From Xanthobacteraceae bacterium (GTDB lineage: Bacteria; Pseudomonadota; Alphaproteobacteria; Rhizobiales; Xanthobacteraceae), in assembly GCA_029239875.1 (NCBI GenBank), contig JARBUD010000005.1:1-64000 (forward strand): a stretch of DNA of 64,000 bases, read 5' to 3'. Below, in pieces: positions 34,619 through 42,070 of the stretch. The first letter of the stretch is position 1; each line of letters starts with the position of its first letter. The notes under the pieces are model-generated. The model had not been told where the DNA came from, made no database searches, and saw nothing but the letters and a program-made list of their open reading frames with translations. The position numbers and the translations under genes were made by a program.

Positions 34619-34858
34619 ATGGCACACATCACCTATCAGATCGTCGAGCACGATGGCGGCTGGGCGTATAAGCTCGGGGACGTCTTCTCTGAGACCTTTC
34701 CCACCCATGATGAAGCCCGCCGCGCCGCCGAACGCGTCGCCCACGAGCAGTCCCGCCCCGGCGAGACCACCTCGATCGAGTACGAGGACAGGTCCGGCAA
34801 GTGGCATGAGGAAACGGCCCGAGGCGACGACCGCCCCGACGCCGAGGTGAAGGGCTGA
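34619..34858 (+). CDS. DUF2188-type small protein
   Basis: 79-residue acidic cytoplasmic protein. The pattern ITYQIVEHDGGWAYKLGDVFSETFPTHDEARRAAERVAHEQ matches the short DUF2188 fold (one copy, residues 4-45), followed by a charged tail. Start ATG 34619 with GAGGAG upstream. It opens a run of small stress-type genes on the plus strand. No EcfG promoter was found immediately before it. Function unknown. Confidence 0.82.
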   Translation: MAHITYQIVEHDGGWAYKLGDVFSETFPTHDEARRAAERVAHEQSRPGETTSIEYEDRSGKWHEETARGDDRPDAEVKG

Positions 34859-34954
34859 TCGGCCTTTCACGCACTCCCCGGAAATCGGTCCGCGCGATAG
34901 CGTGGCAGGACGTGGACCCGAGCCAGGGCGGCTCAGGGACCGTCCTGCTGCGTC

Positions 34955-35203
34955 TCAGCCATTGAGGTGAGCGGCAACGTCCTTCTCGCCGACCGTGACG
35001 ATGCTCGACAGCCGCGGGCTCCACTCGAACTTCTCGGTCGCGATGGCCTCGAGAAGACGGCGGTGCCTTACGCTGATCTCCTGTGTCGCCTTCAGCCCGA
35101 GAGCACGGATCGCGTCTTCATGGACGACGCACTCGACACCGTGCGGCAGCCGGAATTGCAGAGGCGTGGCGGGAGAGGACGATACCTGAGGCTGGTCGCG
35201 CAT
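34955..35203 (-). CDS. DUF1488-like small protein
   Basis: 82-residue cytoplasmic protein. PLQFRLPHGVECVVHEDAIRALG and then ISVRHRRLLEAIATEKFEWSPR resemble the DUF1488 pattern (a hydrophobic strand, a conserved glycine, a helix with R..IEAIA.KF); the family call is tentative. Start ATG 35203 with AGGAGTG upstream. On the minus strand GCAAC-N17-CGTT lies ~25 bp before the start, one mismatch from an EcfG promoter. It is transcribed against its neighbours. Confidence 0.7.
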   Translation of the reverse strand: MRDQPQVSSSPATPLQFRLPHGVECVVHEDAIRALGLKATQEISVRHRRLLEAIATEKFEWSPRLSSIVTVGEKDVAAHLNG

Positions 35204-35376
35204 GCTGGCACTCCTGTTGGCGGCCTACAACGCTCGACCCCGCCATCGGGTTGCAGGCCCCAGGATATTTCAGGGCGCGTCGGGCGCATCGGCATCGACG
35301 AAAAGCACCGCAGACTCCGCGCCCAGCCGCCATCCGCGACCGGGAGCGCCGGTCACCTCGCTCATCCACATGTGCT

Positions 35377-35402
35377 GGAACGCTGTCGACGAGCACCACG
35401 TT
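35377..35402 (+). promoter_or_regulatory. EcfG-type general-stress promoter
   Basis: GGAAC at 35377-35381, 17 bases, then CGTT at 35399-35402. This matches the alphaproteobacterial EcfG consensus GGAAC-N16/17-CGTT exactly. It is 23 bp before the DUF2934 start codon. Confidence 0.8.
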
Positions 35403-35425
35403 GTTGCCGCAGGCAGGAGGAAGCC

Positions 35426-35770
35426 ATGGACGAGAGAGAAGAACGGATACGCGAGCGCGCCCACCGACTGTGGGAAGAGGAAGGCCGGCCCGATGGACGA
35501 GCCGAGGATCACTGGTTCCAGGCGAAGGAAATCGTCGCGCTGGAGGACGGGCATGACGAGACCCTGAAGCCGATCGGATCGCCGGACGAGCCGGTGGAGC
35601 CGATCGAAGCCCTCACCAATGCGGGGGAGTTCCCCACGCTGACGGATCAGGGCGAGATGCAGCCTCCCCATCTGCCCGACGCGGCGCCGTCATCGGAGGC
35701 CGCGCAGGGCAGCGCGCCGAAAGCAGCGCCACGTCGCCGGTCCTCCAATGCCGCGAGCGCGCTTCGCTGA
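35426..35770 (+). CDS. DUF2934 domain-containing protein
   Basis: 114-residue hydrophilic protein. The N-terminus MDEREERIRERAHRLWEEEG followed by RPDGRAEDHWFQAKEIV is the DUF2934 signature (residues ~5-42); the rest is acidic, proline-rich and probably disordered, ending in a basic AAPRRRSS stretch. Start ATG 35426 with a strong AGGAGG. An exact EcfG promoter lies just upstream, which predicts induction by the general stress response. The next gene starts 11 bp later, likely in the same transcript. Confidence 0.88.
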   Translation: MDEREERIRERAHRLWEEEGRPDGRAEDHWFQAKEIVALEDGHDETLKPIGSPDEPVEPIEALTNAGEFPTLTDQGEMQPPHLPDAAPSSEAAQGSAPKAAPRRRSSNAASALR

Positions 35771-35781
35771 AGGGGGACCAC

Positions 35782-36042
35782 ATGATGACCGACATGAATG
35801 CGGGTCGCCCCTCCAAGGCTGACAGTCTGCCGGCGAGCGAGGTGACGACAACCCAGAAGGTGCAGGACGCGGCGGCAGCGGCCGAGGAGCTGATCTCCCG
35901 GCTGGGCAAGCGCGGCGTCGACGCCTATCGGAGCGGCAACGAGGCCGTTGCCGCGCATGTCGATCCCCTCCCCGGGATGCTCGTCGCCGCAGCCGCAGGC
36001 TTCTTCATCGGGTGCCTGTGGGCCTCGGGACGGAACACGTGA
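35782..36042 (+). CDS. DUF883-like tail-anchored small protein
   Basis: 86-residue protein with a soluble helical part (VQDAAAAAEELISRLGKRGVDAYRSGNEAVAAHV) and a C-terminal membrane segment PLPGMLVAAAAGFFIGCLWA followed by SGRNT. The layout matches ElaB/YqjD-type DUF883 proteins that tether to the inner membrane and are stress-induced. Start ATG 35782 after AAGGGGG; a second ATG follows at the next codon. Co-transcribed with the DUF2934 gene by spacing. Confidence 0.8.
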   Translation: MMTDMNAGRPSKADSLPASEVTTTQKVQDAAAAAEELISRLGKRGVDAYRSGNEAVAAHVDPLPGMLVAAAAGFFIGCLWASGRNT

Positions 36043-36210
36043 CGGTGGTTCGCCATCGGAGGATACCCCCGATGGCGCCGCTTCCGAGACGATCTCGGAT
36101 GCATCGAACAGTCCAAAGAACTATTTCGATACCGAGGAGCAAGTATCGACAACTACTATTATGACGATGCCTTCGCATCGAACCGAATTCGATTTTTATG
36201 CTCTTTTTCC

Positions 36211-36235
36211 GGAACGATCGCCGGCAGGCTCCGTT
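36211..36235 (+). promoter_or_regulatory. EcfG-type general-stress promoter
   Basis: GGAAC at 36211-36215, 16 bases, then CGTT at 36232-36235, an exact match to GGAAC-N16-CGTT. It lies 27 bp before the start of the secreted protein gene, at the end of an otherwise AT-rich 220-bp gap. Confidence 0.85.
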
Positions 36236-36262
36236 GACTCTTCATCACACAAGGAGAATCAC

Positions 36263-36553
36263 ATGAGCTTCGCGAAGACGACTTCTTTCGCCGCGCTTGC
36301 TGCGCTGCTGGCCCTCGGCGGCCCGGCGCTGGCCCAGAGCGGCGGCACCACCACGCAGTCGCCCCCGGCCGCCGGCGCCACCAATCTGAACCCGGATGGC
36401 CGCGCCACGGGTGGCTCGAACCCTGTGGATTCCACCGCCGGCTCCACCGAGGGCCGCAACACCACCGTGAAGCCCGGCGACCAGAACGCGGCCGGCAGCG
36501 GTAATTCGGACGATGGACGCCGGGACTGCACCAACCAGCAGACTCCCTGCTGA
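36263..36553 (+). CDS. Small secreted Ser/Thr/Gly-rich protein
   Basis: 96-residue exported protein of unknown function. Signal peptide MSFAKTTSFAALAALLALGG then PALAQ, with cleavage after Ala-Gln likely. The mature part is low-complexity and hydrophilic (QSGGTTTQSPPAAGATNLNP, DSTAGSTEGRNTTVKPG) and ends with two cysteines, CTNQQTPC, that could form a small disulfide. ATG 36263 with AAGGAG. An exact EcfG promoter precedes it and a strong terminator follows, so it is a monocistronic stress gene. Confidence 0.87.
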   Translation: MSFAKTTSFAALAALLALGGPALAQSGGTTTQSPPAAGATNLNPDGRATGGSNPVDSTAGSTEGRNTTVKPGDQNAAGSGNSDDGRRDCTNQQTPC

Positions 36554-36576
36554 CGCGTTTCGCAACTCGCGAATGG

Positions 36577-36603
36577 AGGCCGCCCTTCCGGGGCGGCCTT
36601 TTT
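36577..36603 (+). terminator. Rho-independent terminator
   Basis: AGGCCGCC (36577-36584) pairs with GGCGGCCT (36592-36599), closing a CTTCCGG loop, followed by TTTTT. It ends the transcript of the small secreted protein. Confidence 0.92.
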
Positions 36604-36635
36604 CATGTCCGGTCGAGGATGGGCACCGTCGACCG

Positions 36636-37034
36636 CTACTCCCGCGACGCCAGGCAGGGATCCAACACCACATGATGATCGTCCAGCCGGCTATATCCGC
36701 CGCCGAACACCACGACGTCGCCGCGCGAGAGGTCGTTGGCGCTGTAGGTGACGCACATCACCTGCACCTGGGCGGGCTCGCACATCAGCAGATAGGCCAT
36801 GACGCCGTCGGTATGTACGCCCGTGAGCACCCCCTTGATGCCGAGCGTGATGCGGTTCTCGGTCCTCGGTGCCGCGTCGGCCCAGCGGCGCATCGTCTCG
36901 CAGCTGGCGAGCGTCTCCGGATAGGCCTCTCCCGGCCGGAACGGGCTGGCCGGATCGCAGCAGGAGCTGTCGGCCGATGACGGCTGCGCCGACAGCACAA
37001 GAGCGGAAACCAGCAAGGACCGAAGCGCCGCCAT
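36636..37034 (-). CDS. Secreted cysteine-containing protein
   Basis: 132-residue hypothetical exported protein from the ATG at 37034. Signal peptide MAALRSLLVSALVLSAQ then PSSA. The mature chain has five cysteines (SSCCDPA, ASCETM, MCEPAQ, QVMCVTYS) plus one near the C-terminus (LDPCLASRE), so disulfide bonding outside the cytoplasm is likely. The central ENRITLGIKGVLTGVHTDGVMAYLLMCEP looks like a beta-rich core. No family recognised. The frame is open to 37232, but only the ATG at 37034 gives an export signal. Confidence 0.72.
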   Translation of the reverse strand: MAALRSLLVSALVLSAQPSSADSSCCDPASPFRPGEAYPETLASCETMRRWADAAPRTENRITLGIKGVLTGVHTDGVMAYLLMCEPAQVQVMCVTYSANDLSRGDVVVFGGGYSRLDDHHVVLDPCLASRE

Positions 37035-37341
37035 CTCGACCACCAGATTGATGCCACGCCGTCCATGATGGCGAACCATGTGGCGGCATACCGGCGGGAA
37101 CTGCAGCCTTTCCACGCTGCTGCGGCCACACCCGCACCGGACTACGAATCCGCGCGCCATGTGCAGTATCGCACCCTCGCGCCCCGCGATCTGTGATATG
37201 CTCCGTTGTCGCTCGGGTAATGTATGCGACACGTGCCGGGGGCAGACGGCCCCGCCGGTCGAGATGTGAGGTCAGGCCTCCGCCATCCCCACCGCCCCGA
37301 ACTCGATTCACCGGCAGTCGTCGGTGGCGCGTGGTTATTTC
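37035..37341. other. Intergenic region between divergent small genes
   Basis: 307 bp between the start of the secreted cysteine-containing protein (minus) and the small plus-strand gene. It should carry both promoters. No EcfG pattern, clear palindrome or further gene was recognised. Confidence 0.5.
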
Positions 37342-37557
37342 ATGAACAAGGCAGTGGAAGACCGTGCACGGGCGCAATGTGCGCTCGACGCGAGGATCGC
37401 GGGGGTTGCGGGGAGACGGATTCCGGGCGTCGTCGAACGCCTGTGGCCGGTGGCCGCCCGGGAAATGATGGGCGTCCTGGACCCCGAAGCCCTGGCCGAG
37501 CCGCCGGATCTGGCGCAACGCGAGGCCGAGTACCGGAAGATGAAACGCACTCTCTAG
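37342..37557 (+). CDS. Small hypothetical protein
   Basis: 71-residue charged, helical protein with no recognised domain, signal or membrane segment: NKAVEDRARAQCALDARIAG, VERLWPVAAREMMGVLDPEA, and an end rich in charged residues (QREAEYRKMKRTL). The ATG at 37342 is used; a GTG at 37324 would add six residues. No convincing ribosome binding site was seen, so the gene is plausible rather than certain. Confidence 0.45.
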   Translation: MNKAVEDRARAQCALDARIAGVAGRRIPGVVERLWPVAAREMMGVLDPEALAEPPDLAQREAEYRKMKRTL

Positions 37558-37708
37558 GGTGCGGCTTCGGGAGCCAACGCTCGAACCCGGTTCAACGTGT
37601 ATTGCGGCCGTCGCCGCGGATGTCCGCAGTATCCACAGTCAATGATGAGGAACGCAGGAACCAAGCACGCCAGCGCGAGTTTCAGCAGCGTTAGCCAGGA
37701 TTTCCGCC

Positions 37709-37990
37709 ATGAAAACCCCCGCCGTCGATATCCCTGCGCAGTCGGAAAGCTATTTCATTCTCTATTATGCCGAGCAGCCCCAGGGGGGCGTGATGGGGCC
37801 GATCAAGCGAGCACGCTTCGCCTCGGTCGCCGAAGCCGTCGACAAGGCGCATGAGATGCGGCACTCGCCGCGCTTCAGCCCGCTCGAGGTGCGAGATCCC
37901 AAGGATAATCTGATCACCTGCGCGCTCATGGGCTGGCGCGTCCCCGCGCTTCACCGGCAACTGGCGCCCCAGGTGCGGCGCGCGAGCTAA
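37709..37990 (+). CDS. Small conserved-looking hypothetical protein
   Basis: 93-residue cytoplasmic protein with alternating strand and helix character: ESYFILYYAEQPQGGVMGPI, KRARFASVAEAVDKAHEMRH, FSPLEVRDPKDNLITCALMGW. This beta-alpha-beta pattern resembles DUF2188-like stress proteins, but no family is claimed. Start ATG 37709 after a weak AGGAT. Reading frame on the other strand has less protein-like composition. A weak GC hairpin (38016-38031) follows. Confidence 0.62.
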   Translation: MKTPAVDIPAQSESYFILYYAEQPQGGVMGPIKRARFASVAEAVDKAHEMRHSPRFSPLEVRDPKDNLITCALMGWRVPALHRQLAPQVRRAS

Positions 37991-38064
37991 GCCTGTGCCG
38001 CGGACAGCGGATTCGGGCCGCAGAGGCGGCCTTCTCCCAATCTGTGAAGGCTCTCGGGTTGTCG

Positions 38065-38141
38065 TGGTAGCGGGAGAGGGACTTGAACCCCCGACCCCAG
38101 GATTATGATTCCCGTGCTCTAACCAGCTGAGCTACCCCGCC
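38065..38141 (-). tRNA. tRNA-Met (CAU), elongator
   Basis: 77-nt cloverleaf on the minus strand: GGCGGGG acceptor arm, D-arm TAGCTCAGCTGGTTAGAGCA, anticodon arm CGGGA-ATCATAA-TCCTG with anticodon CAT, T-arm with GGTTCAAGTCC, and an encoded 3' CCA. The acceptor pairs G-C at position 1 and the overall sequence fits elongator tRNA-Met rather than initiator; the tRNA-Ile2 alternative (CAU, lysidine-modified) seems less likely from the body sequence. Confidence 0.95.
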
Positions 38142-38253
38142 ACGACGCTCCGGCGATGATGCCGATTGCAGAGTGGGCGGGATATAAGGAAGCCAGCCGG
38201 ACGGTGTCAAGGCGGGAACGACGCCGACACATGCTTGTGGTCCCGCGCAGGCC

Positions 38254-38493
38254 TCACGCCGTCGCCATATGCGCGAGGCGCAAGCCGTGCGCGAGGAACA
38301 TCAGCCACAGCACCTCGTCCCATGAGGTGAACGGGTCCGGATCAAAACGGTAGCGGCGCATCACCGCCAGAATCGCAGTGAACCACGCCAGCACCGACAG
38401 CCACGCGAGGGCGGCGAGCACCAGCGCGAGCGCGAGCTTGGCAACGAAGCGGCCCACTGTACGCGAGGACACCTCGTCGATCTTGAGGATCAC
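38254..38493 (-). CDS. Small inner-membrane protein
   Basis: 79-residue membrane protein of unknown function from the GTG at 38493, which has a strong AGGAGG seven bases upstream. A charged N-terminus (ILKIDEVSSRTVGRF) leads to a long hydrophobic region (VAKLALALVLAALAWLSVLA and WFTAILAVM), then a basic-aromatic loop RRYRFDPDPFTSWDEVLWLM and a short tail. One or two helices are expected. Its start overlaps the stop of a 25-residue upstream ORF (GTGA), so the two are coupled. Confidence 0.72.
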   Translation of the reverse strand: MILKIDEVSSRTVGRFVAKLALALVLAALAWLSVLAWFTAILAVMRRYRFDPDPFTSWDEVLWLMFLAHGLRLAHMATA

Positions 38494-38567
38494 CGCCCCG
38501 CCTCCTGGCGCCGGCCGCGCGGCTCCAGCACGCCGACCAGCATCCGCCACACGCTCATCAGGGTCAT
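38490..38567 (-). CDS. 25-residue micro-ORF coupled to the membrane protein
   Basis: Encodes MTLMSVWRMLVGVLEPRGRR plus QEAGR from the ATG at 38567, preceded by GGGAGG five bases upstream. Its TGA overlaps the GTG of the downstream membrane-protein gene, and the AGGAGG of that gene lies within it. It begins with a hydrophobic-aromatic half and ends strongly basic. It could be a membrane-associated micro-protein or simply a coupling leader. It is below normal annotation cut-offs. Confidence 0.5.
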   Translation of the reverse strand: MTLMSVWRMLVGVLEPRGRRQEAGR

Positions 38568-38614
38568 GCCCGCCTCCCATGCGCAGGAAAGAGCGGTCCT
38601 TCTGCCGCGCCGGC

Positions 38615-38694
38615 GCATAAGGGATCGATGCGTTTCTCGCGCCCGGGCCATAAGCCGGCGGTCAAAGCCGCACTGACTTATGCCCCCCTTATGC
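38615..38694. promoter_or_regulatory. Cluster of four CATAAG/CTTATG repeats
   Basis: GCATAAGGG (38615-38623) and its perfect inverse CCCTTATGC (38686-38694) flank two more copies of the core, CCATAAG (38648-38654) and CTTATGC (38677-38683). They lie in the divergent gap between the micro-ORF operon and the small gene at 38787. Such clustering suggests operator sites for an unidentified regulator. Confidence 0.4.
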
Positions 38695-38786
38695 CGGAGG
38701 CCTCATCTTCCCATCGCGCCTTGAGACGGTCCTGCCTAGCTTTCCGTTGCGGCGCACATTCCGCGCCGAAAACCCGGCAGAAAAGC

Positions 38787-39017
38787 ATGAGCAGTCTCAA
38801 ATGCAGGATCGCCGATCGCATCGTTCCGGTCGTCAATCATCTGCGTTTCGCCGTCGGCAGGGATGCCGTCGGCCATTGGGTCGCCCTCGAGCTTCACGGA
38901 CGCGGCGGCGGGTTCTTCCGCTCCAAGGAAGCCGCCCTGCACTATGCCATGGCCGAATGCGGCGGACGCCGGCGCGCGGTCCGCGTCTCGCGCCGTCCGC
39001 TCCCGCTCTCCTTGTGA
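38787..39017 (+). CDS. Small hypothetical protein
   Basis: 76-residue basic protein: an N-terminal strand region (CRIADRIVPVVNHLRFAVGR), VGHWVALELHGRGGGFFRSKEAALHYAMAEC, and an arginine-rich end. The GGFFRSKEAALHYA segment resembles DUF2188-like folds. Start ATG 38787; the first Met is followed by SSLKC. The DapA-like gene begins 12 bp after its stop, so they are probably co-transcribed. Function unknown. Confidence 0.65.
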   Translation: MSSLKCRIADRIVPVVNHLRFAVGRDAVGHWVALELHGRGGGFFRSKEAALHYAMAECGGRRRAVRVSRRPLPLSL

Positions 39018-40144: not shown

Positions 40145-41962
40145 CTATTGCTGCGCCGCCAGCCCTGTCGCCGACGGCAGGCGGGCGGCGATCAGCCTTG
40201 CCGCGGCAAGGCTCGGATGGTTGTCGTCGAACAGGAGCGGCGCCCCGTCCACCAGCATGGAGCAGGCCGCGTCGCGGCAGAAGATGTCGGCCGGGCGGAT
40301 CACCCGCACGCGCGGGTCCAGCCCGGCCAGCGCCGCGCTCAGCGTCTCCGCCGGCCGGGCGAAGGACGGATCGCGCCCGAAGGCGAGATGGGTGGGCACG
40401 TCGACCTCCGGGCTCGGCATCGGCCCGACGAGCACCACCTCGCGCCCGGCCTCCGCCAGAGCATTGGCCGCGGCGACGATGCCCGCGACGGCCTTGCCGT
40501 CCAGTACCGGATAGAACGCGGCGAGGATCACCGGCCCCTGGCCATCTGGCGCGCCGAGCGCCGCCAGCACGCTGTCATTGTGCTCCTGGCAATCCGGCCG
40601 CTCGGCACGGGCATAGCCGAGCGCCGGCGGGCAGCCGGAATAAGTGATCACCGTGACCCCGTAGCCCAGCGCCGCCAGCGCCGAGGAGAGTTCGACGCCA
40701 TGGCTGTCGGCCCACACCGTCACCTCGCCCTTCGTCCCCTCTCCGACCTTGCAGTAGCCGCCCGGACGGTCGATCCCGGCGCTGAGGTGGCAATCGAGGC
40801 GCAGCGGGCTGATGTCGAAGCGCGCGCGGTCATAGGCCAGCGCCTGCGCGTCGAAGCGGCCGAAATTGCCGTGCGCGGCGCGCAGCACACTGGTCGCCGC
40901 GAACACCGCGATGGCCCCCGCAGCGGTGGCCGCGAGCAGCTTGCGCGTCGGCACGACCTGCCGGTTGCGGAACGGCTGCTCGATGAAGCGCCACGATAGA
41001 TAGCCGAGCAGCAGCGACAGGCAGAGGACGACGACGGGACCCGCCGGCCCGGGATCGAACGCGCCGCCGCGCGCGAAGACGACGATCGGCCAGTGCCAGA
41101 GATAGAGCGAATAGGAGATCAGCCCGACGCCGACCATGAGCGGCGTCGACAGCAGCCGGCCGGCGAACGTGCCGGGTGCCGCGTGGATCAGCAGCGCGGC
41201 GCCGACGACCGGCAGCGCCGCGTGCCAGCCGGGAAAGGGCGTACCTGCGTCGAAAGCGAAGATGGCGAAGCCGAGCAGCGCGAGGCCGGCGCTCGCGAGC
41301 GCCTCGTTCAGTGCCCGCCCGCTCTGCGCCGGCAGATAGGTGAGCAGGCTGCCGGCCAGCAATTCCCACGCGCGCATCGGCAGCAGGTAGAAGCTCGCCT
41401 CTGGATAGCGGGGGGTCAGCGCGACGCACAGGCCGAAGGACAGGAGGGCGAGCCCCGCGAGCAGCGCCAGTTGCGCTCCCCGCGCAAGGCGCGAGACTGC
41501 AAGCACGACCAGCGGCATGAAGATGTAGAACTGCTCCTCCACCCCGAGCGACCAGGTGTGCAGGAAGGGCTTGGTCTCCGCCGCCGGCGCGAAATAGCCG
41601 GAGCTCAGCCAGAAATGGATGTTGGCGACGAAGCCGAGCGCGGAGAGCGCCTGCTTCGGCACGTCGCGGTTCATGCTCGGCAGCAGGAACACGCCCGAGA
41701 GCAGCACCGTGGCGATGCTCATGACGATCAGCGCCGGCAGGATCCGGCGGATGCGCCGCTCGTAGAAGCGGGCGATCGACCAGCGCCCGCTCTCTGCCTC
41801 GCGGCGCAGGATGGCGGTGATCAGGTAGCCGCTGATGACGAAGAACACGTCGACGCCGACATAGCCGCCGGAGACGAGCGGCACGCCGGCATGGAAGAGC
41901 AGCACGGCAAGCACCGCGACCGCGCGCAACCCGTCTATGTCCGCCCTGTACGACAACGCCAT
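40145..41962 (-). CDS. OafA/YrhL-type acyltransferase with SGNH domain
   Basis: 605-residue O-acyltransferase that probably acetylates a surface polysaccharide or peptidoglycan. The acyltransferase-3 membrane domain (~1-360) begins YRADIDGLRAVAVLAVLLFH and GYVGVDVFFVISGYLIT, has FYERRIRRILPAL and the active-site-proximal LHTWSLGVEEQFYI. The periplasmic SGNH domain (~390-600) keeps VWADSHGVELSSAL and the C-terminal DDNHPS (DxxH). Start: ATG 41962; a TTG at 41998 would add 12 residues without a good ribosome site. Convergent with the small membrane gene. Confidence 0.92.
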   Translation of the reverse strand: MALSYRADIDGLRAVAVLAVLLFHAGVPLVSGGYVGVDVFFVISGYLITAILRREAESGRWSIARFYERRIRRILPALIVMSIATVLLSGVFLLPSMNRDVPKQALSALGFVANIHFWLSSGYFAPAAETKPFLHTWSLGVEEQFYIFMPLVVLAVSRLARGAQLALLAGLALLSFGLCVALTPRYPEASFYLLPMRAWELLAGSLLTYLPAQSGRALNEALASAGLALLGFAIFAFDAGTPFPGWHAALPVVGAALLIHAAPGTFAGRLLSTPLMVGVGLISYSLYLWHWPIVVFARGGAFDPGPAGPVVVLCLSLLLGYLSWRFIEQPFRNRQVVPTRKLLAATAAGAIAVFAATSVLRAAHGNFGRFDAQALAYDRARFDISPLRLDCHLSAGIDRPGGYCKVGEGTKGEVTVWADSHGVELSSALAALGYGVTVITYSGCPPALGYARAERPDCQEHNDSVLAALGAPDGQGPVILAAFYPVLDGKAVAGIVAAANALAEAGREVVLVGPMPSPEVDVPTHLAFGRDPSFARPAETLSAALAGLDPRVRVIRPADIFCRDAACSMLVDGAPLLFDDNHPSLAAARLIAARLPSATGLAAQQ

Positions 41963-42070
41963 TCCGCTGGTTCCGGCACGCTGAAGCCTGCGGAGCAAGG
42001 CGCACCGCGCCTGCGACTCTTAAGGTAGGAGGCGCAGAGGTATCAACTCGCGCCGGAGGGCCGGAAAGCA

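Follow-up and report, generated by a model that had tools for sequence, protein, structure and literature searches.

How many of the small stress-type genes clustered in an Ancylobacter genome (Xanthobacteraceae; 5.07 Mb in 71 contigs) are controlled by the general stress sigma factor EcfG, and where does the controlled segment end? The cluster lies at positions 34619-39017 of a 64,000-nucleotide stretch of contig JARBUD010000005.1 (assembly GCA_029239875.1), here called the window, and a preliminary description had taken the whole of it for one EcfG-controlled island. An island is present, but as a shorter segment (34864-36634), and the limits first given to it were wrong. This segment, a 1,771-bp cassette present in the window and absent from a relative, holds four EcfG-associated genes, and its reading as a strain-variable 1.77-kb general-stress cassette is given a probability of about 0.78.

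Limits of the cassette

The limits were set by blastn comparison with G009, the closest relative examined at this locus, whose genome is a single contig of 4,765,023 bases. The counterparts of window positions 34863 and 36635 in G009, at 2638499 and 2638509, are only 10 bp apart, and the segment between them contains exactly the DUF1488-like, DUF2934, 883-like and secreted-protein genes described below. Presence or absence at a fixed site, as expected of a mobile island, is thus seen from one relative; the two cassette ends, when compared, share no repeat of at least 9 bases, and there is no recombinase among the Pfam matches of the four cassette proteins. G009 carries DUF2934 and 883-like genes elsewhere in its genome, each with an exact EcfG motif, and its DUF2934 protein matches a second Ancylobacter DUF2934 protein, encoded on contig C49 of the window's genome, at 61% over the full length, versus 52% over 60 residues for that of the cassette. 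The two genes that flank the cassette adjoin in the window's genome and G009 only, among 30 loci of the left-hand gene examined, and therefore gain of the cassette here and its loss in G009 are not distinguishable.

Promoter motifs in the window and the genome

A motif scan confirmed two exact EcfG-type promoters on the plus strand, GGAAC-N17-CGTT at 35377-35402 and GGAAC-N16-CGTT at 36211-36235, separated as previously stated by 23 and 27 bases from the ATG codons at 35426 (DUF2934 gene) and 36263 (secreted-protein gene). The one-mismatch sequence GCAAC-N17-CGTT at 35229-35254 on the minus strand was likewise recovered and begins 51 bases before the ATG of the DUF1488-like gene (35203-34955). 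Exact matches number three in the window, where 0.52 are expected and two of 100 shuffles reach three. The third, at 42771-42746 on the minus strand, lies 146 bases before a putative secreted-protein gene of the same strand, in a region that is nearly identical in G009 and keeps the motif there.

Genome-wide there are 85 copies of the exact motif and 37 of the pattern read backwards. Roughly half of the exact matches could therefore be due to chance, and a single match is weak evidence. Placement is more telling: when a start codon with a Shine-Dalgarno sequence 10-60 bases downstream and coding composition were required, 28 of 84 distinct motif sites passed, compared with one of 39 control sites (Fisher p 7e-5), the control in this case having each half of the motif reversed. 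The site at 35377 passes this strict test; the site at 36211 fails it because the composition of its protein misses the coding-composition cut-off.

The DUF2934 gene

The first of the two exact promoters precedes a gene for a protein of 114 residues (35426-35770, plus strand), whose label as DUF2934 holds: its head domain matches Pfam PF11154, a family without assigned function, at E 1.8e-14 and 53.5 bits, above the gathering cut-off of 22. The assignment of the promoter draws on homologs as well as on the scan. When the 300 bases upstream of 30 DUF2934 loci from 61 genomes were searched, the window's own locus included, exact GGAAC-N16/17-CGTT was found at 22 loci (21 of 29 without the window's own), whereas 359 other permutations of the motif averaged 0.13; this mean, like those given below for DUF2934 loci outside Ancylobacter and for 883-like genes, excludes the real motif. 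The highest counts left among the permutations (10 in this survey and, outside Ancylobacter, also 10) come from that site read in a shifted frame (GAACG...; ...GTTC). The spacer is 16 bases long at six loci and 17 at 16, no other length from 10 to 23 was found, and the sequence between the two boxes varies.

A second survey, of a named collection, covered the best 80 of 509 confirmed DUF2934 loci, 64 of which lie outside Ancylobacter. The exact motif stands no more than 150 bases upstream at 14 of these 64, seven of them in Pleomorphomonas (mean of other permutations, 0.095), and on the opposite strand at three. The relaxed form GGAAC-N17/18-GTT is found at 25, against a mean of 0.34 and a maximum of three for 29 other permutations. 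Relaxed or exact sites occur in Pleomorphomonas, Rubellimicrobium, Chthonobacter, Aurantimonas, Oceanibaculum, Amorphus, Chelatococcus, Azorhizobium, Chelativorans and Shinella. The remaining 39 of the 64 loci lack even the relaxed site, and the link between DUF2934 and the EcfG motif is therefore recurrent but not universal. The DUF2934 paralog on contig C49 likewise has an exact motif, with three more exact sites nearby. Control of the cassette's DUF2934 gene by EcfG is a well-supported prediction from these upstream sequences.

In the AlphaFold2 model of the protein, two helices (residues 3-19 and 26-46) form a head that is followed by a low-confidence tail; the mean predicted local distance difference test score is 73.5, and by block only residues 1-40 exceed 90. 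A sequence search of the PDB gave no solved structure (best E 0.26), and Foldseek with the model gave no match at E up to 0.001. The protein would probably act in the cytosol as an adaptor made of two helices and a flexible tail. In the literature searched, no paper was found that links DUF2934 to EcfG or to the general stress response. A DUF2934 gene is among the induced genes of a Sinorhizobium fredii mutant, beside genes for sigma-32, a ferritin-like protein and CsbD, in an expression profile that its authors call consistent with starvation (PMC9100948); DUF2934 is also listed among the released proteins of Asaia (PMC12502724), and in Rhizobium it lies next to genes for quorum sensing (PMC13133039).

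The surroundings of the C49 paralog (C49:72400-76900, locus L133) form a denser stress cluster than that of the window, with four exact EcfG motifs in 2.3 kb that precede a DUF892 gene, the DUF2934 paralog, a topoisomerase IB gene and a small gene without a Pfam match.

The tail-anchored protein gene

Eleven bases past the DUF2934 stop codon begins an open reading frame for a protein of 86 residues (35782-36042, plus strand), identified through its homologs and profile comparison as C-tail-anchored and ElaB/YqjD-like (883-like). It lacks a motif in the 150 bases upstream, and the two genes are probably read as one transcript: RNA polymerase with EcfG bound at 35377-35402 would produce both the DUF2934 protein and the small membrane protein. 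In the relatives the gene tends to have its own promoter: 13 of 16 homologs carry an exact motif no farther than 250 bases from the start (mean of other permutations, 0.06), ten of the 13 at -52 to -58. In three relatives (G013, G014, G018) the 883-like homolog is preceded by a second DUF2934-type gene, and in two others (G006, G017) the DUF2934 and 883-like genes adjoin, facing each other. Predicted EcfG control of the 883-like gene, through the operon here and through separate promoters in relatives, is thus well supported.

The DUF883 label originally attached to this protein does not stand: the window protein has no DUF883 match in Pfam, and the family falls short of the gathering cut-offs. 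Among 17 members of the family, three match DUF883_C (best E 0.003), three match the N-terminal model (best E 0.022) and seven match a generic transmembrane model; nothing was found in the PDB by sequence at E below 0.2. All 17 have a hydrophobic C-terminal stretch that ends 3-9 residues from the C-terminus, and comparison with the profiles of ElaB and YqjD (DUF883) of Escherichia coli, which are also small proteins with a hydrophobic, glycine-rich C-terminal tail, gives P 92%, higher than every one of 100 shuffles in both of two controls. The likeness comes mostly from the tail (P 80% alone, compared with 1.6% for the head alone), and ahead of the tail the family has a conserved YxxxN...D.P motif, which ElaB and YqjD do not show. 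ElaB is controlled by RpoS and OxyR in E. coli (PMC6389858), so that with EcfG predicted for the window gene, general-stress control would apply to both. Like ElaB and YqjD, the window protein is probably an inner-membrane protein whose helical head lies in the cytosol, and it would help to protect membrane or ribosomes.

The secreted-protein gene

The second exact promoter, 36211-36235, precedes a gene for a small protein of 96 residues (36263-36553, plus strand), rich in serine, threonine and glycine and probably exported, its signal peptide having been judged by eye. A contig scan with this protein gave no relative, and a genome search gave five weak ones, all from Ancylobacter, which share the N-terminus, EGRNTT and the C-terminal DC...QTPC. 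RNA polymerase with EcfG at this site would produce the exported protein from a transcript ending at a terminator-like hairpin with a T run (36571-36604, plus strand; -24.1 kcal/mol, z -3.6, none of 200 shuffles as good); the hairpin is missing from the list of a separate pattern scan.

The match at 36211 might also be fortuitous, in which case EcfG control would be limited to the DUF2934 operon. Exact sites commonly arise by chance, this one failed the strict placement test, and none of the homologs has an exact or one-mismatch motif in the 300 bases upstream. Against this, GGAAC stands at -51 to -55 in all five homologs (-52 in the window), followed in all five at equal spacing, N16, by GATT as the -10 element in place of the window's CGTT, and the gene of a small secreted protein published as EcfG-dependent has CATT at this position (PMC6599016). 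A chance match is considered improbable, and EcfG control of the secreted-protein gene likely. Upstream of the homologs (loci L023-L027) there is a conserved GGAAC-N15-GGATTATTCC block, which is possibly a variant -10 element of the same sigma factor or the promoter of another extracytoplasmic function (ECF) sigma factor.

The DUF1488-like gene

The minus-strand gene at 34955-35203 (82 residues) was recognized as an open reading frame. The name DUF1488 given to it earlier could not be upheld: the window protein has no Pfam match, and of two homologs found in 60 relatives, one matches DUF1488 at E 0.0053 and 17.2 bits, below the gathering cut-off of 22. GAAAC-N16-CGTT precedes the two homologs, at -60 and -58; the window has GCAAC-N17-CGTT at -51. 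This is no more than suggestive of EcfG control, which is possible for this gene; the weaker site may drive it.

Regulator locus and regulon

Upon stress, an HWE kinase phosphorylates PhyR, which then binds the anti-sigma factor NepR and so releases EcfG. Genes of this kind are together on contig C16: an HWE-domain kinase (E 8e-27), PhyR (PhyR_sigma2, E 7e-25, plus a receiver domain) and NepR (E 5e-17), the latter two above their Pfam cut-offs, and, adjoining nepR, an ECF sigma factor that scores above the cut-off of NCBIfam PRK12540 and which, from this position and established knowledge, we take to be EcfG. Divergent exact motifs lie between nepR and phyR, at 113741-113765 (minus strand) and 113807-113831 (plus strand). 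Further targets predicted by the motif in the genome are genes for Ku, topoisomerase IB, trehalose-phosphatase, DUF892, PRC-barrel and DJ-1/PfpI proteins and a sigma-70-type factor; Ku, topoisomerase IB and PRC-barrel are also on the EcfG target list of Sphingomonas melonis (PMC6599016). The promoter form, the distance to the gene, the regulator locus and these three types of target agree with the PhyR-NepR-EcfG regulon of S. melonis Fr1. In the papers found, the cassette genes are not named as targets; here EcfG control is predicted for them, and their prediction as new targets of an already known regulon is well supported.

Several points weigh against this assignment. Single exact motifs are often chance occurrences; related genomes do not provide independent upstream regions; the exact motif is missing at eight of the 30 DUF2934 loci of the first survey, some of which have one-mismatch sites, and at 50 of the 64 outside Ancylobacter; the homologs of the secreted-protein gene have GATT; and the roles of the cassette proteins are drawn from weak likeness. 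With PhyR and the query set aside, seven more stretches of the genome resemble the EcfG protein at E 8e-4 or better, the best being C4:137318 with 37% identity, and GGAAC could be recognized by an ECF sigma factor other than EcfG. GGAAC-like -35 elements are common to other ECF groups, and the promoters may be real and yet used mainly by one or more of these factors, as the GATT elements might also indicate. However, the same motif flanks nepR and phyR and precedes typical EcfG targets, and CGTT with a spacer of 16 or 17 agrees with the published EcfG motif, GGAAC-N17-20-GTT (PMC6599016). Use of the promoters chiefly by another ECF factor is thus judged unlikely, somewhat more so than the chance match at 36211, and EcfG remains the preferred regulator of the cassette.

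Flanking genes and the rest of the block

To the left of the cassette is a DUF2188 gene (34619-34858, plus strand), whose label is borne out by Pfam (30.1 bits, gathering cut-off 22), and to the right a conserved gene for a protein of 132 residues (36636-37034, minus strand). Neither has an EcfG motif, and no site with up to one mismatch was found in the 150 bases upstream of these two genes or of those at 37342, 38254 and 38787. EcfG control of the window's DUF2188 gene was accordingly rejected. Its homologs have the exact motif at four of 30 loci, fewer than the best permuted motif (five), and a site with up to one mismatch at -57 to -45 at 16 of 30. Many of them (loci L084-L101) have GGAAC-N17-xGTT near -46, which the copies of the window and G009 lack; therefore a promoter may have been lost here. 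The gene at 37709-37990 is preceded at 52 bases by the one-mismatch site GGAAC-N16-AGTT (37657-37681, plus strand), identical in G009; EcfG control of this gene was rejected, the site being missing at nine of 11 homolog loci, where start codons are uncertain.

Extension of EcfG control to all of 34619-39017, as first proposed, would draw on sites with up to one mismatch at -49 to -52 in four of ten block genes, compared with 0.29% of control positions, a figure that is biased because the block was picked for its motifs, and on the near-motifs of DUF2188 homologs elsewhere. Five of the six genes outside the cassette, DUF2188 among them, lack a site, that of the sixth is not conserved, the present/absent segment ends at 36634, and the block includes a tRNA and conserved genes without a motif. 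Control of the whole block was therefore rejected, and a single island of that extent is very improbable.

The tRNA, tRNA-Met (cat), lies at 38065-38141 on the minus strand. G009 also lacks 37132-37581 (450 bp, with the gene at 37342), and farther on 40159-42049, about the length of an acyltransferase-like open reading frame (40145-41998, minus strand).

Implications for the general stress response

A broader proposal is that DUF2934 proteins recur as effectors in the general stress response of Alphaproteobacteria, where they would work with a C-tail-anchored, ElaB/YqjD-like protein at the inner membrane, and that such stress genes move as small cassettes with promoters of their own, which can be used in any strain since EcfG is present there beforehand. 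This is tentative and, on the present evidence, rather doubtful, though less so than any of the alternatives above. The more useful part is DUF2934 as a recurrent general-stress gene. In S. melonis a considerable proportion of EcfG-controlled genes have no known function (PMC6599016), and a family that has an exact stress promoter in several genera, with no constraint on the sequence between the boxes, is more worth testing by experiment than a motif match in a single genome. The cassette, present in one strain and absent from another, suggests that members of the regulon may be gained or lost in a single step.

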